21,373 nucleotides of DNA, taken from positions 1 through 21,373 of IMG/VR virus record IMGVR_UViG_3300003324_000290. One strand, given 5' to 3'. Shown one piece after another: positions 3,961 through 21,373 of this stretch (position 1 is its first letter; each line of letters opens with the position of its first letter). Source of the DNA: a virus. Under the pieces are notes generated by a model. It ran no database searches and was not told where the DNA came from. It was given only the letters and a program-made list of their open reading frames with translations. Position numbers and translations under genes: made by a program.

Positions 3961-6900
3961 TTAACTTGGAGAGGTTGGGTTCTCCTTTTGCTCTTCCTGC
4001 TGTAGGTTTCGCTTCAAGTCTTCAAGCCGTTTTGGAACTGAAGGTGGAAGAGTGTCTAGTGAAAGTGTCAAGCTGTCTGGCTTGTAGTCAATTCGTACAA
4101 TCTGCATAGTTACATCATCAACGAAGTTACCGAAGTTTGTGAATCCAACCAACTCGCCAAGCTTAATGCTCTCAATTGGGTACACCTTGTCGCTAATTGT
4201 AATCTGGCTGCGGTAACGAGGGTCTTTATAGCGGTCAATCAAGCTGTCAACAATAATGTCAGCTGATTCATATAGCTTAACTCGTTGGTCGGTAACTCTC
4301 TGGAGTCCTCTGCGGTAGTCGCTAATTGAGGTTGCATCTGTGTACTTCCTAAAGATGTTGGTTGCTGCGTTTGTATCGCTAACCGTGTAGAAGTTGTCTA
4401 TGTGAAGTCCAGTCGTATCTGTAAGGACCGCTGCTGACCTGAATCCACTGAGTCGCCCTGACGGGATTGAGTTATCAGTCACGTCAATTACAACCGTTCC
4501 TGCAACGACCACGCTAATCTTGTTCGCGAGCATTCGAAGCTCGATGTGCTTTGTAGTTCCGTTTCCTGGGTCTGCGTACGCACTCGTTCCAAGACTTGTA
4601 AATGAACCAGCAACGCACTTGTAAAGCTGGACCTGGTTTGAGCCAGGCTGGATTCTCGCCATGTAGAATGTCAACGCTGACGGTTGAACGCGACCAATGA
4701 TACCGAAGTCAGCCGTATATGAAAGCTGGTAGTAGTCTGCGTGCACTGAGTAATCATCTGAAAGTGATTGACCACTTGCGATAAAGACGTTTTCAACGCC
4801 TCCAGTTCCAGATGGACGCACTCTCTCAGAGTCGGTGATGACATATGTTGCTGTTGCGTTAGCGTTCGGGTGTCTTGTCCAGGTTGCTCCAATAGCACCA
4901 ACGTGAGCTGATAGGTCGGTTCCTGCGATGTCGCTAAACACATCTTGGACGAATGGGTTAAGAGCTCCACCTGTAAAGTAAACAACGTTGGTTAAGTCCT
5001 CGATGTATTTCTCAAGGTTCAACTCTGTAATGTGCTTACCAAGAATAAACGTATGAGCAGGTGTTGACGGACGAGGGTGAAGGTGGACGTAGTTGGTTGC
5101 CATGTCGTAGTACCAGAACCAGTCGGTCGGTGAAAGCTCAAGACACTTCTTAACAACCTCAAGAATCGTGTTCGTGTTGAAGGCATATGTAACAACCGTG
5201 TTACTGTTCTCAACCGTGTTAGTCTCAGTTTGAAGAGCTACTAGGTTAGCTGGAATGTCGTCAGTAAACGTTCCATTAGTCAGTGTCATGTTTGCTCCAG
5301 TTTGTGAGCCAGAGTTAGCGACCACAAATCCGTTGTTCTCGTCAAACTTGTACCACAGCTTTGGAGTCGCTGGGCGAGTGTTCGTGTTGTAGAGAGCCGT
5401 TACTTGAGTCGAGTTGAGAGCTGAATCGAAAATCATTAGCTCGTCAATCTTACCCTTAAACTTCTGACTCGTTGCAGTACGTCCACCAATTCGTCTAATT
5501 GAAGAAGCTGATGAGAAGTTTGTCGTGTTGACGACTGCACCAGGAGCTGTTAAGGTCTTGCTTACTGCATTAACGTAGATTGTGTGGTTGTTTCCTGTAC
5601 CGTTTCGAACGTAGACGATGTGATTCCAAGCTCCGGCCGTTAATGAGTTGTTTGCAACCACGACACCCGTTCCGTTGATGAGTACATATACAGCATTCGT
5701 TTGTGAGGCTTCTGATGTTGGACCGACCTCGATTTGGAATAATCCAGCCGTGTTATCACAACCGTAAATAGTCTGTCGTGAACCAAGTGAGTCTGGGTAA
5801 ACCCAAGCTGCAAACGTGAAGATGTTAACGTTGGTAAGTCCAAGCGTATGAGCAGAGTTGCTAACAGCATGGCTTGTTCCCGTTCCCTTAAGCTTGAGTG
5901 CTGTATCGTTGTGGAAGTATGTTGGGATTCCTCCGTCGGCGTTAAAAACGTCGAGAGCATTTCTCAAAATCATTCCTGGGTCAAGACTTTCGTAGCTTAC
6001 ACGAGTAGCTCCTCCAGACTCAAGGACGTAGTTGTCCATGTCTGCTCCGTAGCTGAACAGAGTCACTTTTGTGTTTTCGTCTCGACCGTACTGTGTAACG
6101 TAGCGTGAAATGTAACCGGTAAAGACTACAACTCCCTCAAGTGGAGCGTCGTCGTAGTACGCTGTGATTACAACATCCAAGTTGAGGTCAACGTTTGTTC
6201 CAGGACCAATCGCGTTAATTGTCTGAGTTTCTGCAAGGATTGTGTTATTACTGTCAGTTAAGAATGGGTCAGACGTGTCGTCTGCCAGGACGTCGAACTC
6301 ACGGAACTGAGAATCGCTGTTTCGAGCTAGAGTTACCTCGATAGCAGAACCACCAGAGTTGATTTCCTGGCTAATGTTAAGCTCACTGATGACGTCTGTC
6401 CACTCACCTAAGTAAGCGTGGGTATCTGGGTTGTAAATCTTGTAACTGTAGATTTTTCGGTCAAACGTGTTCTGGACGTGAAGAGGACTACCGTTGACAG
6501 AGCCACTAAATAATATCGTACCTGATATATCTCTGTACGCATCTAGCTCAGGACGGTCAGCTCCACCTGAGAATAATATCGTTCCTGATATTGAACCAGA
6601 CCTAGTTGAAATGTTGAAGTTATCGTACTTTGCTGAGACTGATGTACTGTTGTCAGTGTTGTTCCACGTTCCAGCGCTAAACTCAACCGTTAAGCTAGAT
6701 AGGTTGATTGGAGGAGCTGCCGACGTGAAGATGTTCCAGGTTGTGAAGTTAGAGCTGTACTCCCAGTATAAAATGCCACCGTTTTCACGAAGCCTAATAA
6801 ACTTATGAGTTGCCGGAACGTAAGCGACGTTCGACAGGTCACTTCTCGTTCCAGCCACCTTCTTGTATGCTCGAATTGTGTTCTGAGTTACGAAGAAACC

Positions 6901-8226
6901 AACCTCATTAGTTGAGTCGACTCGCATGAGGAAGAATGCTTCCCAGTTGTTGAAGCTCTGGTTTCCCATGTCGACAAGCTGTACCCAAGCCTGGCTTCCG
7001 TAAAGCATGTATCTGTTGTCAGATGTTGCGCCTGAGTAGACTTGAGTTAAAGCTGGACTTGTTAGTACAAGGTTGCTTCCAGAGACTGAGTAGTTGTTGT
7101 AACCGTCCCAAAGTGATGTGTTGAAGGTATCAAATCCATCGCTAATCGTACTTACAAGCGGAGGTGGAGCTGTGAACGTCCAGCCAGTGTTTCCACTGAC
7201 GTTCGTTGAGTGTGTTCCTGCGTACCAAGCTGTCGGTCCGATTGCATGGTTGTCCTTGATTGAGAGGTAGTCTCCTGAGATGTATCCCTGGTTTGAGTAA
7301 AACTCAGCGTAGTTGCCAGCAAGGTTCGTGTTAATCGTAACCAAGTTGCCACTGGTTCCAGAGATAGTCGCAGGACCGTTAATGTTAAGCTTGAATCTGT
7401 TACCAGCGTGGACCGCACCGGTTGTCAGTGTTGTACCAGGCTCAAGCTCTAGAGCATTAACCGTGTTGTTTAAGTTGTAATCGCTTGTTCCAACATAGAT
7501 TGGAATGTTAAGAACACCGCTTCCTGCGTTGTGAAGCTTACCATATGTCTTATCAGCACCACCAAACGTCTTTGATGATGAGCCGTAGAATCGAATCGTT
7601 GCGCTTGCAGCAGACGTTGTTCTATTTGGGTTCGCGTCAAAGGCTGTCTGAATGTTAATTACAGAGGCACCAAGCGTCAACTGTCCAGCGTCATGGCTAA
7701 TACCGTCCCAAGCGTAAACATCGACGTTTTGCCCGTTCGTGTCGATGTGTCCTGAGTACAGTCTAACGCTTAATGGACTTGTAAGAGCGTCCTGGAATAC
7801 CCACTTTGTTCCTCGTGGAGTGTTTTCGTTGAACTTAATCTCAGTGTTGAACAGCGTACCATTCCATGTGATGTTCTTCGTTGAGTTTGAGTTGGTCTGC
7901 TCATAGAAAAACGGAGCTGCAACCGTGTTGCCACCAGTGAAGTAAATGTTGCTGTTACCGTAATATGTACCATGGACGAAGAACCTGAATGTGCTGTTAA
8001 TGCTAATTGTTGCGAAGTCATCTAGGTTTTGAGCTGAGAAGTTTCGAACGTTAACATCGTTTGAGCCAACTGTAATCGTAAACGTACCAGCACTTGAGTT
8101 CTGGTCAATAAATACGTCGTCTGCAGAAGTTGGGACACTAGCACCAGAGGCACCTCCACTAGTAGAGGACCATTTAGTTGTGCTAGTCCAGTTACCTGAA
8201 CCTCCGACCCAGTACCTATTGGCCAT
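3961..8226 (-). CDS. Large tail hub (Gp37-like) with beta-rich N-module and inserted lectin-like domains
   Basis: The protein has 1421 residues. Residues ~1-355 are a beta-rich module opening with RYWVGGSGNWTSTTKWS and ending TNVSGNTGW, common on phage tail and surface proteins. Residues ~360-540 form a ConA/laminin-G-like sandwich (FDTFN..LWDG...FFLMRVDSTNEVGFFVT). Residues ~546-579 hold two copies of SGTILFSG. Residues ~590-770 begin a siphovirus ReqiPepy6 Gp37-like hub domain. A second LamG-like domain (~775-950) and a third sandwich (~1093-1283) are inserted before the last hub segment (~1287-1393: RVTDQRVKLYESADIIVDSL ... LGELVGF). The C-terminus is a charged Gln/Glu-rich tail. It would form the tail tip and bind glycans or other surface polymers. 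ATG with GGGAG inside the end of the preceding gene. Confidence 0.8.
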   Translation of the reverse strand: MANRYWVGGSGNWTSTTKWSSTSGGASGASVPTSADDVFIDQNSSAGTFTITVGSNDVNVRNFSAQNLDDFATISINSTFRFFVHGTYYGNSNIYFTGGNTVAAPFFYEQTNSNSTKNITWNGTLFNTEIKFNENTPRGTKWVFQDALTSPLSVRLYSGHIDTNGQNVDVYAWDGISHDAGQLTLGASVINIQTAFDANPNRTTSAASATIRFYGSSSKTFGGADKTYGKLHNAGSGVLNIPIYVGTSDYNLNNTVNALELEPGTTLTTGAVHAGNRFKLNINGPATISGTSGNLVTINTNLAGNYAEFYSNQGYISGDYLSIKDNHAIGPTAWYAGTHSTNVSGNTGWTFTAPPPLVSTISDGFDTFNTSLWDGYNNYSVSGSNLVLTSPALTQVYSGATSDNRYMLYGSQAWVQLVDMGNQSFNNWEAFFLMRVDSTNEVGFFVTQNTIRAYKKVAGTRSDLSNVAYVPATHKFIRLRENGGILYWEYSSNFTTWNIFTSAAPPINLSSLTVEFSAGTWNNTDNSTSVSAKYDNFNISTRSGSISGTILFSGGADRPELDAYRDISGTILFSGSVNGSPLHVQNTFDRKIYSYKIYNPDTHAYLGEWTDVISELNISQEINSGGSAIEVTLARNSDSQFREFDVLADDTSDPFLTDSNNTILAETQTINAIGPGTNVDLNLDVVITAYYDDAPLEGVVVFTGYISRYVTQYGRDENTKVTLFSYGADMDNYVLESGGATRVSYESLDPGMILRNALDVFNADGGIPTYFHNDTALKLKGTGTSHAVSNSAHTLGLTNVNIFTFAAWVYPDSLGSRQTIYGCDNTAGLFQIEVGPTSEASQTNAVYVLINGTGVVVANNSLTAGAWNHIVYVRNGTGNNHTIYVNAVSKTLTAPGAVVNTTNFSSASSIRRIGGRTATSQKFKGKIDELMIFDSALNSTQVTALYNTNTRPATPKLWYKFDENNGFVVANSGSQTGANMTLTNGTFTDDIPANLVALQTETNTVENSNTVVTYAFNTNTILEVVKKCLELSPTDWFWYYDMATNYVHLHPRPSTPAHTFILGKHITELNLEKYIEDLTNVVYFTGGALNPFVQDVFSDIAGTDLSAHVGAIGATWTRHPNANATATYVITDSERVRPSGTGGVENVFIASGQSLSDDYSVHADYYQLSYTADFGIIGRVQPSALTFYMARIQPGSNQVQLYKCVAGSFTSLGTSAYADPGNGTTKHIELRMLANKISVVVAGTVVIDVTDNSIPSGRLSGFRSAAVLTDTTGLHIDNFYTVSDTNAATNIFRKYTDATSISDYRRGLQRVTDQRVKLYESADIIVDSLIDRYKDPRYRSQITISDKVYPIESIKLGELVGFTNFGNFVDDVTMQIVRIDYKPDSLTLSLDTLPPSVPKRLEDLKRNLQQEEQKENPTSPS
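6509..6591 (-). repeat. Two near-identical 20-bp direct repeats encoding SGTILFSG motifs
   Basis: Plus-strand positions 6509-6528 and 6572-6591 differ at a single base (AATAATATCGT then A or T, then CCTGATAT). They lie 63 bp apart, in frame, inside the tail hub gene. They encode two copies of the ISGTILFSG segment with a 21-residue period, between the first lectin-like domain and the hub domain. They look like a linker duplication. Confidence 0.8.
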
Positions 8227-14997: not shown

Positions 14998-17103
14998 TTA
15001 GCTTACGCCGGGAGCCAAGATACCTGCAACACGTGTTGGGTCGGTGATAGCACCACCTCGGAAGAAGCTTCCTCGGAGAACCAACTCGTTGCGCTGGTAG
15101 GCAGACTTCACTTGACCACCGTCTTCGTAAGAAGCTTCGGTGCTTAGGTCGTACTGTAGACCACCGCTTGTTCGACCTGTGAACTTGCTCAAGTCAGCGT
15201 AGAACACAGCGTGGTTAACTGTAACTGTCTGACCCTCGACTGTGAAGCTAACTGTAGCTGCAGTGTCAAGGCTTGGAAGCAAGTCGTCGCTTACGATGAT
15301 GTAAGGTCGTCCGAACATGCGAGGCTGGTCGCCTGTAGTGAAGATTTGTGAAAGTGGACCACTGATTCCTGCTCGTAGTGCGTAAGCAAGAATGCTTGCG
15401 TAGCTAGAGTTGTTCAGGATGAAGGTACCGTTTGGTGTAGTTTGAGCGATTTGAGCGTAGGCCTGTAGAAGCGATACCAAAGCTTCAACAGATGGGTTAG
15501 TGTCGTAAACAACACTGTTGCCGTTGCCCTCGACTGCCTGCTCTAGGCGTGCTACAACGAGCTGAGCTCGCTTGCGGTCGTAGTCGTTTCGGTAACCAGC
15601 TGCAACGTCTGACAGAAGGTCAACTGCTAGGAAACGAGTAGCGGCGTTACAAACTGGTGTAACAGCAGCAAGCTCGAATAGGTTAGCAGTGTCGATTTCT
15701 GCACCGTATTCACTGATTGGCTTTAGGTTACCGTCGTTATCGTCGTCGCAGAACTCAACTTCTTCCATTGAGATGTCACCGCTACGAGTAATCCAAGCCA
15801 TTTGTGTGCTTAGAGTCTCTTTCCAGTTGGTAGCGTTTACAAGTGGGGTGTAGTCGTTTCTGTTACCTTCGATGTCGGTAAGCATTTCCTGGCTAATGAC
15901 GAAGTTGCCGAAGTCAGTGATGGTCATAGAGTTCTGAACCAGACCCTTTTCCTTCAAGCCTTCAAGGTTTACTTCGTTAATAGCGTTGAGCTCTGCCCAC
16001 TTGCTCTGGTCGTGACGCTTCAGGATGTCCCAAGCAGCGTTAATCTGCTTGCCGTGGCGCTCTTGCCAGCTCATTGAGGCGAACTCGTTCTTAGCGTTCT
16101 TCACGCCGTTGTCTTGCTTTTTGAACTCAGGCTTCTTAGCACCTTTGTCGAAAGCAGACTGCTCAAGCTTAGTCATTTGCTCTTGCATTGGCTTCAAAGC
16201 GTTTGCAATCAGCTCAGCTAGCTTGTTCTCTGAAACTCCGCCCTTTTCCTCGTCGTCACCCTTGTCGTCGTCACCAGCTGGTGCAGGTACTGCAGGTGCT
16301 TCAGCGTCGTTGATTTGCTTTTCAACACGCTCTTGCTGGTCGCTGCTGACGTCTAGAGTAGCGTTAGGAGCAAGCTCGGTCTCTACCGTGTCTCCGGCTG
16401 CGTTAGTGTAGCTGATTTTAACAGCGAACTCACGGCCGTTCTTGATAGTTACGAAAGTCATTTCTTCCTTGTCCTTATCGTTATTATTGTTATTCTTGTC
16501 GGCGTCCTCTTCCTTCTCACCCTTGTGAGTTTGCTCAATCTTGATGTCTTTTTCCTTAGCATCAAGCTCGAGTTCCTTCTCAAGTTCTGAAGTATCGAGG
16601 CCGTCTTCCTTGGCTTGCTCAATTGAGTTGCGCACAATTGAGTTGACTGTAGCTGACTTGTTATTACCAACAACCACCTGGCTTAACCCGATGAGTTTCG
16701 CGTCCTTGTAGACTCGGTCTTCCTCGGTTGGCCATGGGCCATACGTTTCGATAGAAAAGTTTGTTGGTACCTTAGGGCTCAGCAATAGGTTGTACGCTAA
16801 CCGAGCAAGTGGATTTTCCTTGACAAGATAGTTAATCTTTTTTACTATTACCTTGCTTCCAACCTTAGAAAGGCCTTCAACTCCAGCAATAATGTTTTCA
16901 AGTCTATCAAAGTGGTCTGCAGTTACCTGACCGCCGTACTCTGATAGGTCCATGCTCTTGATGTCGTACCTAGTGCCGTTTCGCTGCTCAGAGTTGTCAC
17001 TAATGACCAAACCTCGCGGAAACGATACTACGCCATCGCCTTCATCAACAAAAGCGTTCTTCTCAACGAGCACGCCTACATGGTTTTTGACAATCTTTGT
17101 CAT
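14998..17103 (-). CDS. Prohead protease - linker/scaffold - HK97-type major capsid fusion protein
   Basis: This 701-residue protein has three parts. Residues ~1-165 look like an HK97-type prohead (U35) serine protease. His64 (TADH) and Ser117 (TNFSIE) have the same spacing as the catalytic pair of that family, and a GLSQVVVGNNKSA segment at ~139-151 matches its usual ELxEVSxVxxPAN strand. Residues ~165-335 are acidic and low-complexity, with a run of five Asn and a predicted coiled coil (LAELIANALKPMQEQMTKLE), fitting a scaffold or delta domain. Residues ~340-701 are the major capsid protein, with the typical late region GRPYIIVSDDLL followed by the basic/aromatic end of the fold. Many phages encode protease and capsid separately. 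Fusions are known, and self-processing would release the shell protein. An internal start at 16461 could add a protease-free form. ATG start; TAA stop at 15000-14998. Confidence 0.88.
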   Translation of the reverse strand: MTKIVKNHVGVLVEKNAFVDEGDGVVSFPRGLVISDNSEQRNGTRYDIKSMDLSEYGGQVTADHFDRLENIIAGVEGLSKVGSKVIVKKINYLVKENPLARLAYNLLLSPKVPTNFSIETYGPWPTEEDRVYKDAKLIGLSQVVVGNNKSATVNSIVRNSIEQAKEDGLDTSELEKELELDAKEKDIKIEQTHKGEKEEDADKNNNNNDKDKEEMTFVTIKNGREFAVKISYTNAAGDTVETELAPNATLDVSSDQQERVEKQINDAEAPAVPAPAGDDDKGDDEEKGGVSENKLAELIANALKPMQEQMTKLEQSAFDKGAKKPEFKKQDNGVKNAKNEFASMSWQERHGKQINAAWDILKRHDQSKWAELNAINEVNLEGLKEKGLVQNSMTITDFGNFVISQEMLTDIEGNRNDYTPLVNATNWKETLSTQMAWITRSGDISMEEVEFCDDDNDGNLKPISEYGAEIDTANLFELAAVTPVCNAATRFLAVDLLSDVAAGYRNDYDRKRAQLVVARLEQAVEGNGNSVVYDTNPSVEALVSLLQAYAQIAQTTPNGTFILNNSSYASILAYALRAGISGPLSQIFTTGDQPRMFGRPYIIVSDDLLPSLDTAATVSFTVEGQTVTVNHAVFYADLSKFTGRTSGGLQYDLSTEASYEDGGQVKSAYQRNELVLRGSFFRGGAITDPTRVAGILAPGVS
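16459..16474 (-). promoter_or_regulatory. Candidate internal translation start in the protease-capsid gene
   Basis: An in-frame ATG at 16461-16459 (Met215 of the fusion) is preceded by ACAAGGAAGAA, a good AAGGA Shine-Dalgarno site four to six bases away. It lies exactly at the junction of the charged linker (KDKEE) and a new folded-looking segment (MTFVTIKNGREF). Starting there would give a 487-residue scaffold-capsid protein without the protease. The site may be chance, since the linker is rich in Lys and Glu codons that mimic such sites. Confidence 0.4.
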
Positions 17104-17217: not shown

Positions 17218-17433
17218 CTACTGTTCACGCTGTACATTTATGAGTGTTCTAACCTGGCTTTGGCCGTCTACCTCAAAAGCGAACGTTAACTTACAGCTTC
17301 GGCACCAGACCTCGCCAGCGCTTCCAGGATATACCTTCACGCAGACTCGGTTACAGGTGTACAGCATTCCGCTGCTTTTGCTTCTCTTCTTAAACGGACA
17401 CTTAATATCAGTTAGTTTGTGTTCCTTGCTCAT
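17218..17433 (-). CDS. Small Cys-rich, zinc-ribbon-like protein
   Basis: This protein of about 71 residues has five cysteines: IKCPF near residue 12, C-x3-C (TCNRVC) near 27-31 and C-x2-C (WCRSC) near 44-47. The last two pairs, about 13 residues apart, could form a zinc knuckle. The arrangement recalls small Com-like zinc-finger proteins of phages, but I cannot confirm that family. Two adjacent ATGs are available. The second (17433) is preferred because the AAGGA site lies about six bases before it, against three for the first (17436). It ends in TAG at 17220-17218, directly before the capsid promoter motif. A nucleic-acid-binding or regulatory role is only a guess. Confidence 0.6.
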   Translation of the reverse strand: MSKEHKLTDIKCPFKKRSKSSGMLYTCNRVCVKVYPGSAGEVWCRSCKLTFAFEVDGQSQVRTLINVQREQ

Positions 17434-17614
17434 CATCTATCCTTCTATCATGCTTATTGACTGCAGTAGGGTGTTTCTCGACTTTTGTCGTGGCCCTTAC
17501 AGGACGTTTACGTTTATATGCTTTTCTTCGTTCCTCATTCAACTGATAAACCTGCTTAGGGCTCATCTGGTAGTTTGGGTTCTCGGCTAATCTTCGAAGT
17601 TGTTCAAGTGACAT
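17408..17614 (-). CDS. Small basic phage protein of unknown function
   Basis: This 68-residue, very polar protein has a helical N-terminal half (MSLEQLRRLAENPNYQMSPK, then QVYQLNEERRKAYKRKRPVR) and a basic, disordered-looking C-terminal half. It has a strong AGGAG site about seven bases before the ATG. Its 3' end overlaps the start of the next gene by 26 nt. Short proteins of the type LxxLAENPxxxMSPKQ are familiar as uncharacterised phage ORFs, and I do not know their function. The spacing, ribosome-binding site and position in an unbroken gene string support it as real. Confidence 0.6.
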   Translation of the reverse strand: MSLEQLRRLAENPNYQMSPKQVYQLNEERRKAYKRKRPVRATTKVEKHPTAVNKHDRRIDDEQGTQTN

Positions 17615-17624
17615 TCGCTCTCTC

Positions 17625-17969
17625 CTAAGACACTTCTTCTATCGGCGGACGAACGGCGACGATTAGCTGGTCGTAGACAACATGCTTCGTGCTGTCCGCG
17701 TAGGTAATCTTCACCTCGCACCGATAGTCGGTCTTATAGTTCGGGAAGTCTCCGTCCTGAACCTCATAGATTATCGAACCGTTGGCTGCGTCAGTTACAG
17801 TGCAAGACTGGTGTCCTGCGTTCGTAATTGCCTTGGTCTTGATGTTCTGAATGATAAAATCAACAGAACTTGCGTCAGTCAAGTCGATTGGCTGGCGGCT
17901 TCTTTTGTAGCGCAAGCTCAAGTCGATTGCTGGCGCCGTGTTTCCTTGTACGGTCAAATATACTGGCAT
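17625..17969 (-). CDS. BppU-N-like Ig-fold structural protein
   Basis: This 114-residue protein begins MPVYLTVQGNTAPAIDLSL and has the pattern of the N-terminal domain of phage upper baseplate proteins (BppU_N type). That pattern is an opening G-(N/D)-x-x-P strand, then P-(I/L)-D-L-T-(D/N)-A-x-x-V-x-F, a D-x-x-x-G-x-(I/V)-x-Y strand near the middle, and a Y-x-C/x-E-V-x-(I/V)-x-(Y/F) strand before a charged C-terminus. Such domains occur on baseplates and also as small proteins near capsid genes. Here it lies two bases after the stop of the giant repeat protein and a few genes before the capsid, so it may be part of the same surface structure. It uses ATG with an AGAGGA site about six bases upstream. 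The family match is by eye and the role is inferred. Confidence 0.55.
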   Translation of the reverse strand: MPVYLTVQGNTAPAIDLSLRYKRSRQPIDLTDASSVDFIIQNIKTKAITNAGHQSCTVTDAANGSIIYEVQDGDFPNYKTDYRCEVKITYADSTKHVVYDQLIVAVRPPIEEVS

Positions 17970-17971
17970 AC

Positions 17972-20900
17972 TTAGTCCTCTACTCTAATTATAACATTCT
18001 GGTCCATTGACTCTAGCACCACGTATTGAGTGGTATCGCTCTCAAGGACGAATGATTGGTCCTCGGTCTCGAGAGTGACGTGAACTGAAGTTAATGGAGC
18101 TCCGTTAATGAATGCGTCTGTGGTGTGGCTTACCAAGTTCGGTGCTGACTTGTTGGTATCAGTTGTGTGGTAAACACTGCTAACCTTTCGCTTGTTGGCG
18201 TCAGTCGAGTGCTGGACAGTGTGGCGAGTTGTAGTTGTCGCGTCAGTCGTGTGGCTTACAGTGTTCTGAGTCCTCAAAGCTGAGTCAGTCGTGTGGCTGG
18301 TTGTATTTGCCTTGCGCTTAAGAGCGTCTGTCAAATGGAGCTTACTGAAGACCTTTCTCAATAGTGAATCTGTCGTGTGAGAAAGCTGATTAGCTTTTCG
18401 CTTCAAGGCGTCAGTTAAGTGTGATACTGTCAAGCGTCTCTTCTTCAGAGCGTCTGTAGTATGGAAGACGGTTAATCCAGCCTTGCGCTTATTCGCATCG
18501 GTTGTATGCTGGACCTGGTTAGCACCACGCCGGTAAGCGTCTGTGGTGTGGAAGACTGTGTTTCCAGCCTTCTTCTTGTTTGCGTCCGTTGAGTGGCTAA
18601 CTGTGTTTGCTTTTCTCAGAAGCGAGTCAGTTGAGTGTACTAGAGTATTGACTGCTCGCTTGAGTGCGTCAGTTAGGTGGTTTACCGTGAATACCTTGCG
18701 CTTGTTACTGTCGGTCGTATGGCTAACAACGGTTCTTGCTCTCTTCAGAGAATCTGTAGTATGAGAAACAGTCGTTGCTTTTCTCTTGTTTGAGTCGGTA
18801 GTGTGGGTCAACGTGAGACGACGTCGTAAGAATGCGTCGGTAGTATGGAAGATTGTGATTGCTGCACGCTTCTTGTTCGCGTCGGTAGTATGGCTTACGG
18901 TTGTAGCTTTACGCTTGTTCGCATCAGTGTTGTGGCTTCGGCTTGTTGCAGAGTAGAACAAGGCGTCCGTGTTGTGAGATACCGTAAAGCTCTTCTTCAA
19001 GTTCGAGTCAGTCGTGTGCTGAAGAGTGTTTGCAGACCGTAGAAGCGCGTCAGTAGTATGGCTAACTGTTATATCAGCTTTCTTTTTATTAGCGTCAGTG
19101 CTATGGCTTACTGTGTACGCTCGGCGCTTGTTTGAATCGGTTGTATGTGAAACTGTCTGAGCTTTTCTCTTGTTGCTGTCTGTAGTGTGAGACAGAGTCA
19201 AGCGTCGGCGTAGAAGCGCGTCGGTAGTGTGAACGACTGCAGTTATTGTTCTCTTGAGCGCATCGGTTGTATGAGACAGGGTATTTCGTGTTCTCTTGAG
19301 CGCATCTGTAGTGTGGCTAACAGTATTGTTTGCCTTTTTCTTATTGGAGTCAGTGGTATGAGAAACGGTGTATGCTCTCTTCTTGTTCGAGTCCGTTGTG
19401 TGTGAAACTGTGTAGGCACGCCGTTTATTAGCGTCTGTTGTGTGAGTTACGACGTTGGAGCCTCTCAAGAATGAGTCTGTGGTGTGAGTGAGAGTAAGTC
19501 TCTTTCGAAGCAGTGCGTCGGTCGTATGGCTTAGTGTGTTGACGGTTCTCTTAAGAGCGTCAGTTGTGTGGCTGACGATATTGTTCGCTTTTTTCTTGTT
19601 CGCGTCGGTTGAGTGAGCAACGGTATACGCTTTTCGCTTATTAGCGTCTGTCGTATGGCTCACTAGGGTGACGCGTCGCTTGTTCGAATCCGTAGTATGG
19701 CTAAGTGTATTAGCTTTGCGTAGAAGTGAGTCTGTGGTATGCGAGAGAGTGTTGAGGGTACGCTTCAAGGCGTCTGTCGTATGACTTACGGTCTTAATTG
19801 CTCTCAAAAGGGCGTCAGTGGTGTGCGTTAGGACAAGGTTACTCTTTTTCTTGTTGGCGTCGGTCGTATGAGTGACCGTGTTGTTCGCTTTCTTCTTATT
19901 TGAGTCTGTAGTATGTGAAAGCGTGCTCTGCTTGCGCTTTAGAGCGTCCGTAGTGTGAGTAATCGTGTAAGTGACCAAAGCTGGGGTCAAGTAAGCGTCC
20001 GTCGTGTGGCTCAGGGTGTTTCGAGTGCGCTTCAAGGAGTCCGTAGTGTGAGTTACGGTATTGTTGGCCTTCTTTTTGTTCGCATCTGTCGTGTGTGATG
20101 TTGTAGTAACTTTTCTCAGGTTAGCGTCGGTGTTGTGGCCAACCGTGAACTGCTTTCGTTTCAACGAGTCAGTAGTATGTGTTACAGTATTGCTCTTTCG
20201 CTTGAGAGAATCAGTCGTATGAGACAGGCTGAAGAACTTTCGCTTGAGAGCATCAGTTGTATGTGAAAGTGTAAGTCGCTTTCTCAACAAGGCGTCTGTA
20301 GTATGAGTCTGGGTGTACTGTCGTCTCTTGTTAGCGTCCGTACTGTGTGAGACTGTGTAAGCCTTGCGCTTATTGGAATCTGTGGTGTGAGTTAGAGTCG
20401 CTTGCTTTCTCTTAAGTGCGTCAGTGGTGTGTGAAATTGTTAGTGTCTGCTTCCAACCTGAGACGTTTGTTCCAGTGAACCCAGTGCCTCGAAGCCACGA
20501 AGCACCGCCGGTCGCGATGTTGTTACTGATTGTAAGGTAGTTACCGGTGTTGGTTCCTGATGAATCACTGAACGTGAACTGTCCAGAGACGTTCCACCTG
20601 TTCATTGTCACGACGTGGCCAGACGTACCGTTGAAGTTCCACGTTGAACCAGTATATGTGCTTGCACTATCGAAGGTGATATTTGTGTCAGGCTCGAATG
20701 ACCAAGTTGCAGCGGTAATTGAATTGTAGAACTCAACGCCGCTTAGTCCTGAAGTTGACTGGATAGTTATGCTGTTAACGTCTGTTAGGTTGTTACCGAA
20801 GTCGAGGTATCCCCAGCCGCCGAATCCAGACAGGTTAGACCCGTTGTAGACGATGTCGAGGCCAGATTCAACCGGACCAGTATCCCACTGGCCGAACCTA

Positions 20901-21373
20901 TCGTTAATTGTGATTGTTCCGCTTCCAACTAGTTGTCCGCCGTCAGCATACAGGTTGTTAACGTTTAGGTCGTACCCGTTCATGTCGAGCACAGCGCTTC
21001 TTATCCAGGTATAGAACTCGCTTCCAGTTCCCTCTTGGTAGAGGTCACTTTGAAGAATGAACGAACCAGTTGTCGCATTTTGGTCGATTCGGATGTGGTT
21101 GTGCTGGAACGGTATTCCCTTGGTGTCAATCGTGTACTGGTTGTCGTCCTCTGCGATTGCCCACAGGCCAAGGTTCGTTAACGACATTGAGCTTGAGAAG
21201 ATGACATTTCCGTGAACTGTCATGTAGTAGTCTTCACCTTGAAGCGTGAAGGTTTGGTCTATAGCACTTGAGTCGAAGCTCTTAACGTCGATGGTGTCAC
21301 CAGTCGCGTCAACAGTTGAGCCGTCACTACTAAACGAGTTCGCGTCAAAGATAACGTTCTCTGTGTAGGTTGG
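17972..21373 (-). CDS. Giant HTTD-repeat fiber/adhesin-like structural protein, 5' end cut by window edge
   Basis: The frame is open from the last base of the window to a TAA at 17974-17972, giving at least 1133 residues. An in-frame ATG at 21223 exists but is probably internal: the 50 codons before it have no stop and continue the same domain. The first ~310 residues are a Gly/Asn/Thr-rich, beta-rich module that resembles the N-terminal module of the tail hub at 3961-8226 (PT..(D/E).V.(F/I)D.NS at the start, then a VHG motif, GNYLTISNN versus GDYLSIKDN, and TNVSG-W at the end). Next come 783 residues of 55 tandem HTTD units, then a 36-residue acidic, beta-like tail. I see no signal peptide, membrane segment or enzyme motif. 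It is probably a virion fiber or surface protein. Its place just upstream of the capsid gene suggests the head, but a tail or cell-surface role is possible. Function is inference; the repeat structure is seen directly. Confidence 0.85.
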   Translation of the reverse strand, partial: PTYTENVIFDANSFSSDGSTVDATGDTIDVKSFDSSAIDQTFTLQGEDYYMTVHGNVIFSSSMSLTNLGLWAIAEDDNQYTIDTKGIPFQHNHIRIDQNATTGSFILQSDLYQEGTGSEFYTWIRSAVLDMNGYDLNVNNLYADGGQLVGSGTITINDRFGQWDTGPVESGLDIVYNGSNLSGFGGWGYLDFGNNLTDVNSITIQSTSGLSGVEFYNSITAATWSFEPDTNITFDSASTYTGSTWNFNGTSGHVVTMNRWNVSGQFTFSDSSGTNTGNYLTISNNIATGGASWLRGTGFTGTNVSGWKQTLTISHTTDALKRKQATLTHTTDSNKRKAYTVSHSTDANKRRQYTQTHTTDALLRKRLTLSHTTDALKRKFFSLSHTTDSLKRKSNTVTHTTDSLKRKQFTVGHNTDANLRKVTTTSHTTDANKKKANNTVTHTTDSLKRTRNTLSHTTDAYLTPALVTYTITHTTDALKRKQSTLSHTTDSNKKKANNTVTHTTDANKKKSNLVLTHTTDALLRAIKTVSHTTDALKRTLNTLSHTTDSLLRKANTLSHTTDSNKRRVTLVSHTTDANKRKAYTVAHSTDANKKKANNIVSHTTDALKRTVNTLSHTTDALLRKRLTLTHTTDSFLRGSNVVTHTTDANKRRAYTVSHTTDSNKKRAYTVSHTTDSNKKKANNTVSHTTDALKRTRNTLSHTTDALKRTITAVVHTTDALLRRRLTLSHTTDSNKRKAQTVSHTTDSNKRRAYTVSHSTDANKKKADITVSHTTDALLRSANTLQHTTDSNLKKSFTVSHNTDALFYSATSRSHNTDANKRKATTVSHTTDANKKRAAITIFHTTDAFLRRRLTLTHTTDSNKRKATTVSHTTDSLKRARTVVSHTTDSNKRKVFTVNHLTDALKRAVNTLVHSTDSLLRKANTVSHSTDANKKKAGNTVFHTTDAYRRGANQVQHTTDANKRKAGLTVFHTTDALKKRRLTVSHLTDALKRKANQLSHTTDSLLRKVFSKLHLTDALKRKANTTSHTTDSALRTQNTVSHTTDATTTTRHTVQHSTDANKRKVSSVYHTTDTNKSAPNLVSHTTDAFINGAPLTSVHVTLETEDQSFVLESDTTQYVVLESMDQNVIIRVED
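17976..17996 (-). promoter_or_regulatory. Putative extended -10 promoter (TGTTATAAT-N5-TAG) before the 114-residue gene
   Basis: On the minus strand this reads TGTTATAAT, TAGAG, TAGAGGA. The TATAAT is at 17993-17988 and lies inside the last codons of the repeat-protein gene. The AGAGGA at its downstream end also serves as the Shine-Dalgarno site for the ATG at 17969. It has the TGn extension of an extended -10 promoter, and no clear -35 is visible. It is one of six similar sites in the window. Confidence 0.5.
18083..20431 (-). repeat. 55 tandem 14-15-residue HTTD protein repeats (42-45 nt period)
   Basis: I counted 55 units beginning H-(T/S/N/L)-T-D, spanning 783 residues. Forty-four units are 14 residues long, ten are 15 and one is 17. 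The general form is HTTD-(A/S)-(N/L)-(K/L)-(R/K)-K, then four or five variable residues, then T-(V/L)-(S/T). By hand count the array has 138 Lys+Arg, 56 Asp, no Glu and no Cys, so net charge is about +82 before counting His. Two unit types recur: N-type (ANKRK/ANKKK) and L-type (ALKRT/ALLRK). The 15-residue units are nearly all of the ANKKK kind. Codons for the invariant residues vary from unit to unit, so the repeat is much clearer in protein than in DNA. Confidence 0.97.

Follow-up and report, generated by a model that had tools for sequence, protein, structure and literature searches.

What a protein built from 55 short, strongly basic repeats does beside the capsid genes of a virus is the question raised by a 21,373-nucleotide stretch of DNA from IMG/VR record IMGVR_UViG_3300003324_000290 (positions 1 to 21,373; hereafter the window). 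Non-tail fibres have been poorly catalogued, since no homology can be detected in their stalks. Coordinates without a prefix refer to the window; G000 is the 43.5-kb virus record, and L numbers denote individual loci.

An HTTD repeat maintained by selection on the protein

Translation of the minus strand from 18083 to 20431 gave 783 residues with a H-[TSNL]-T-D motif in 55 of 55 units (the HTTD repeat). Units are 14 (n=45), 15 (n=9) or 17 (n=1) residues long, and H1, T3 and D4 are invariant. The array holds 138 basic residues (79 Lys and 59 Arg) against 56 Asp, a net charge of +1.6 per unit, together with 6 Gly and 3 Pro, and is devoid of Cys, Glu, Trp and Met; the initial annotation had thus counted correctly when it reported 55 units, 138 Lys/Arg against 56 Asp and neither Cys nor Glu. 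The array shows the 14-residue period, the H-[TSN]-[TIA]-D-[AST] core and the protein-level selection by which we define the HTTD family here. The gene carries the following features in the window:

17972..21373, minus strand: C-terminal part of the 2,335-aa HTTD fibre gene, continuing past a gap to G000 24979
20432..21373, minus strand: beta-rich module splitting the arrays, its N-terminal motif YWVGGSGTW...HWS lying beyond the gap
18083..20431, minus strand: second HTTD array, 55 units, from translation and synonymous saturation
17972..18082, minus strand: short C-terminal tail SVHVTLETEDQSFVLESDTTQYVVLESMDQNVIIRVED, not conserved in relatives

Tandem Repeats Finder (TRF) detected only two short stretches in the array DNA, and equal residues at equal positions of different units shared the same codon in 38.5% of cases compared with 39.1% when codons were drawn at random from those that the array uses (0.385 vs 0.391), which together rule out a DNA tandem-repeat artefact. 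Neighbouring units showed no rise in nucleotide identity. Since codon sharing is no higher than in random draws, synonymous sites are saturated; the array is old, and its HTTD motif is maintained by protein-level selection. A weak super-period of 5–7 units (about 6; lag 5, p=0.001 among 24 lags tested) was detected in this array, whereas the arrays of relatives showed other lags or none, with no common lag; we therefore rejected a six-unit super-repeat as a structural feature and read it as an old block duplication. The spacing of 15-residue units was not significant (p=0.14).

The array belongs to a long modular protein

The 1,083-aa open reading frame of the window proved to be merely the C-terminal part of a 2,335-aa frame on the minus strand of the 43.5-kb record (G000 17972-24979), the window breaking off within the gene at a 34-N gap in the scaffold (G000 21374-21407), which left half of the protein out of view. 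Continuity over the gap is based on the shared frame and on the motif YWVGGSGTW ... HWS ... gap ... PTYTENVIFDANS, which resembles the start of a 1,421-aa protein at 3961-8226. Beyond the window edge lie a Kelch domain, a further array of 13 units and two partner genes. The complete protein thus consists of a Kelch region (Pfam PF24681, E 3e-47), 13 HTTD units (aa 984-1170), the beta-rich module and the 55 units, 68 units in total. Pfam gave no match for the beta-rich module, which by eye is akin to the N-terminus of the 1,421-aa protein, and no match to PF10651 (BppU_N) in the 2,335-aa protein. The 1,421-aa protein, encoded in the tail region, itself has an N-terminal GSGNW module, a laminin-G domain and a weak match to a 3-keto-disaccharide hydrolase.

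Related proteins share this design, in which ligand-binding-type modules are separated or followed by HTTD arrays: Kelch here and in L096, laminin-G in L024 and L111 (E 1.7e-44 and 7.7e-22) and a glycine-rich module in L111 (E 3.5e-26). The Kelch half common to L096 and our protein is 53% identical over 1,214 aligned columns. The L096 array has 69 uninterrupted units as against 13+55 split by the beta-rich module, and the C-termini of the two proteins differ despite the closely related Kelch region, so that either end of the fibre could be the anchored one.

Distribution of HTTD arrays and variation in charge

We scanned IMG/VR with a degenerate DNA pattern for two HTTD tetrads spaced 14 residues apart and retrieved 36 stretches in 29 contigs of 5–228 kb, nearly all of them true arrays. 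The same pattern yielded two real cases in the GTDB species genomes, L069 (a contig of bacterium ADurb.Bin212, genome 1.2 Mb, in a phylum whose listed genomes are 0.5–2 Mb) and L068 (a contig of Candidatus Methanoperedens nitroreducens); the other GTDB matches inspected look like chance or short DNA tandem repeats. A search of 380 genomes of the phylum of L069 and 150 of the order of Methanoperedens returned only the original genomes. Searches of INPHARED (50,697 phage records) and PLSDB by tblastn with our own, neutral and acidic arrays returned nothing credible, E=1 matches in Klebsiella phages being noise, in a search where the low-complexity filter of BLAST may conceal arrays; the 178-aa and 133-aa partners described below also gave no match in INPHARED or PLSDB.

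A PDB sequence search with one array and a profile gave nothing credible, and array segments matched no credible family in Pfam or NCBIfam. The scattered, weak matches to Pfam, PHROG and NCBIfam were attributed to repetitive sequence, except for phrog_30105 (a family with no function or structure attached), to which 11 of the 25 segments matched with a best E of 2.3e-14, indicating that such repeats occur in at least one of its members; our own protein did not match it at E<0.1. We found no paper that describes the repeat. The earlier statement that the unit is assignable to no named fibre family therefore holds for Pfam, NCBIfam, PDB and catalogued phages. With the HTTD core as a search signature and the 178-aa gene as a conserved marker, a class of proposed viral adhesion appendage not found in catalogued phages can now be sought.

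Pooled over relatives, the core reads H1, T/S2, T3, D4, A/S/T5 and L/K7, in units of 14, 15, 16 or 17 residues. The initial annotation had proposed that the repeat may form a rod whose basic patches, one on each turn, could bind a polyanion such as teichoic acid, capsular polymer or DNA. The +1.6 charge per unit here and the +2.0 to +2.3 in L012, L029, L077 and L103 would suit such a rod, but the charge across relatives ranges from −1.4 (L035) to +2.3 (L012), and the same H-T-T-D core is kept at about 0 in L040, L078 and L088; the chain, moreover, carries dedicated lectin-type modules. Basic patches as the purpose of the repeat are thus not supported: polyanion binding is not intrinsic to it, its basic character is a lineage trait, and we consider the polyanion-binding rod very improbable.

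A conserved three-gene cassette

In many contigs the HTTD gene is preceded by two others, in the order ~178-aa gene, ~130-aa gene, HTTD gene. Our own copy of the first (G000 26089-26628; L010:9090-9629, minus strand) belongs to a family whose 33 aligned sequences are 51–87% identical to it. Used alone as a query, the alignment of this family retrieved 37 contigs, 14 of which are also among the 29 array contigs, compared with about 0.0004 expected by chance among 2.9 million contigs. A profile for the family located the gene in 21 of the 29 array contigs in the stretches examined. Conversely, a detectable array is present at 17 of the 37 loci with the gene, many of the others ending early, and the L090-L094 clade has the gene with no array in about 10 kb downstream. 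AlphaFold2 predicted a beta-sandwich for the 178-aa protein (pLDDT 92), which had no convincing structural match in the PDB and weak matches only in BFVD (for example, Bacillus phage G gp173); no confident relative in either marks it as a decoration or collar protein. The family is absent from PHROGs and has no confident Pfam match. In one contig, a 159-aa frame that looks like a LAGLIDADG homing endonuclease (L040:4627-5106, on the same contig as L085:10556-11035) separates the 178-aa gene of the cassette from the ~120-aa one.

The trio has the same order in the bacterial-virus contigs and in an archaeal provirus. In 20 kb of the Methanoperedens contig, one flank holds a roadblock protein and a proteasomal ATPase with an OB domain; a tyrosine integrase comes next and then the trio, here of 186 aa, 145 aa and a 370-aa protein with three HTTD-type units (element L114:6991-13424). 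The contig reads as an element integrated in an archaeal chromosome, not a misbinned phage contig; no hallmark head or tail gene was recognized on these 20 kb. The same three genes in the same order in an archaeal integrated element are unusual for adhesion genes, and the case would allow module exchange between viruses of two domains to be traced. The conserved partner cassette, more than the repeat, is the surprising part of this system.

The cassette lies among head genes

In our own phage the gene order is portal (PF04860), the 178-, 133- and 132-aa genes, the HTTD protein, a BppU_N-like protein and a protease-MCP fusion, the last two within the window:

17625..17969, minus strand: 114-aa gene adjoining the fibre gene, putatively BppU_N-like, 23% identical in a weak alignment to L069:6821-7159
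14998..17103, minus strand: fused prohead protease/major capsid protein (MCP), co-linear with L069:1888-3672 (E 2e-5)

The halves of L069:1888-3672 match a PHROG head maturation protease and a PHROG major head protein, and the fusion at 14998..17103 places the fibre gene in the head module. L069:6821-7159 is a sub-threshold match to PF10651. The HTTD gene is flanked by portal and MCP/protease genes in G000, L069 and L096, the latter two having the same surroundings except that the BppU_N-like gene is upstream. The cassette follows the MCP in L085, L103 and L111 and precedes connector and tail genes in L078 and L107, some flanking genes in relatives being assigned by eye. The earlier claim of a location by the capsid genes and away from the tail fibres is thus supported, and this placement recurs in distant relatives.

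Judged from gene content, the cassette is common to unrelated head modules, since the MCPs match different families (phrog_1328 in L085/L040, a Mu-gpT-like family in L103, the protease-fused type in both G000 and L069) and since the adaptor of L103 (PF24175) is of podovirus type while G000 encodes a siphovirus Dit. Our phage also encodes, between its fibre and capsid genes (17218-17436), a protein of 72 aa that has paired Cys motifs and resembles a Com-type zinc ribbon; at 264-1700 lies an Amidase_2 endolysin and, after it, about three ~75-aa repeats that may bind the cell wall. Unusual cargo recognized by eye comprises two genes of a single phage, for a vWA/DUF2828-like protein (L011:14-1474) and a PTH2-like peptidyl-tRNA hydrolase (L009:13764-14171).

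Some of these data bear on a different placement of the product, as a side fibre that uses an Ig-like adaptor to dock on the adaptor or baseplate of the tail, its gene having reached the head module by shuffling only. At its C-terminus the HTTD protein of L031 carries the fibre-tail adaptor domain of gp77 from podophage GP4 (PF23148, E 5e-17), and it weakly matches PDB 8jou in sequence; this fusion points to the tail, not the head or neck. Pfam did not detect the domain in our own protein. The gene next to the HTTD gene in L103 encodes an SU10-type adaptor, and in lactococcal phages BppU_N occurs as a domain of the baseplate (PMC6669499). However, the HTTD gene of G000, L069 and L096 is enclosed by portal and capsid genes, well away from the tape measure, Dit and tail fibres, and the tail of G000 already has its own fibre-like protein of 1,421 aa. 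We therefore regard a tail side fibre as unlikely.

A probable modular adhesion fibre at the neck or head

The repeat, the selection on it, the modular architecture, the conserved gene trio and its location among head genes are established. The simplest reading of the arrays and modules, taken with the lactococcal neck-passage precedent, is that the gene product is a modular virion adhesion fibre located at the neck or head with the HTTD arrays as its stalk, a reading that we consider likely and that favours the earlier suggestion of a surface-binding appendage in this region. Together, the 68 motif copies probably make up a long stalk to which domains of sugar-binding type are attached. Every 14-residue unit would contribute one repeat to a long beta-structured rod that is probably a trimer; the conserved H-T-T-D-(A/S/T) core would make the repeat-to-repeat contacts, leaving the other positions solvent-facing and freely variable, charge included. 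The stalk would hold ligand-binding-type modules off the particle, Kelch and beta-rich in our phage and laminin-G, glycine-rich and others in relatives. With its gene in the head/connector module behind the 178-aa and ~130-aa partners and beside the BppU_N-like gene, the fibre would be positioned at the neck or head, the partner proteins serving as attachment parts on the virion, and it may keep the particle reversibly on surface glycans, as is thought for neck-passage and head fibres.

The shaft of adenovirus fibres rises about 1.3 nm per repeat. At an adenovirus-like rise, the 55 units would span about 70 nm, or about 26 nm if each unit were a solenoid turn. The initial annotation had suggested structure prediction of four to eight units; AlphaFold2, run on a monomer of eight units with 25 aligned sequences, gave no confident fold (pLDDT 32), a result that fits an obligate oligomer or disorder equally. 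This value leaves room for disorder and, together with the sub-threshold BppU_N-like call in the window, weighs against the neck or head fibre. The array could instead be an intrinsically disordered, sticky linker or brush that spaces lectin modules, its basic versions binding polyanions. It is indeed very polar and Thr/Lys-rich, and relatives tolerate units of 14, 15, 16 or 17 residues. Yet strict 14-residue spacing and invariant H, T and D across saturated synonymous sites are unlike such linkers, and the core is kept in relatives with neutral or negative charge; we think a disordered linker improbable and prefer the stalk of a neck or head fibre.

A wider proposal, which we regard as possible rather than probable, is that 14-residue HTTD repeats build a new fibre fold, which serves as the stalk in an adhesion cassette of three genes that is both widespread and mobile. 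This cassette would be exchanged between head modules of siphovirus-like and podovirus-like type, as well as over the divide between bacteria and archaea, and the 178-aa beta-sandwich protein, being highly conserved, would act as the docking part in every case.

Comparison with known systems

In lactococcal neck-passage structures (NPS), a trimeric fibre is combined with carbohydrate-binding modules and a beta-sandwich of BppU type, and attachment to the portal has been proposed (PMC6669499). Those of the 936 and TP901-1 groups share with our system the head/neck gene context, a nearby putative BppU_N-type domain, an elongated stalk (a probable one in our system), and carbohydrate-binding-type modules on the fibre chain, with variable modules on a conserved base. 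Our gene lies in the capsid/connector region, between the portal and the protease-MCP, and carries such a putative module (Kelch, E 3e-47; LamG in relatives). The NPS stalk, in contrast, is a predicted trimeric coiled coil with BppU fused N-terminally, whereas ours is an HTTD array without such a fusion, a sub-threshold BppU_N-like protein being encoded by a separate gene next door. We know of no NPS counterpart for the two partner genes of the cassette.

Triple beta-spiral and YadA-type proteins also have repeats of 14–15 residues in trimeric fibres. Repeat length is similar, but PDB searches found no sequence relation, and the triple beta-spiral has a 15-residue repeat with a Gly/Pro turn, whereas the main period of the HTTD array is 14 and its 783 residues, with their few Gly and Pro, form no such turns. 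The head fibre gp8.5 of phi29 and Hoc of T4 are, like the proposed fibre, non-tail appendages thought to aid adhesion to the cell surface (PMC7602432). They differ in that gp8.5 is a beta-tulip base with a helical supercoil and Hoc is built of Ig-like domains (PMC7602432), neither with an HTTD-type repeat.

If the HTTD repeat folds as a trimeric rod, it would be a new and very regular protein fibre whose charge is freely varied in nature. The best reading of these comparisons is that our fibre would work like the lactococcal neck-passage fibres without being a member of them. The HTTD repeat is genuine and conserved, and the libraries searched contain no description of it; the repeat is of a new kind, the device to which it belongs of a known one.
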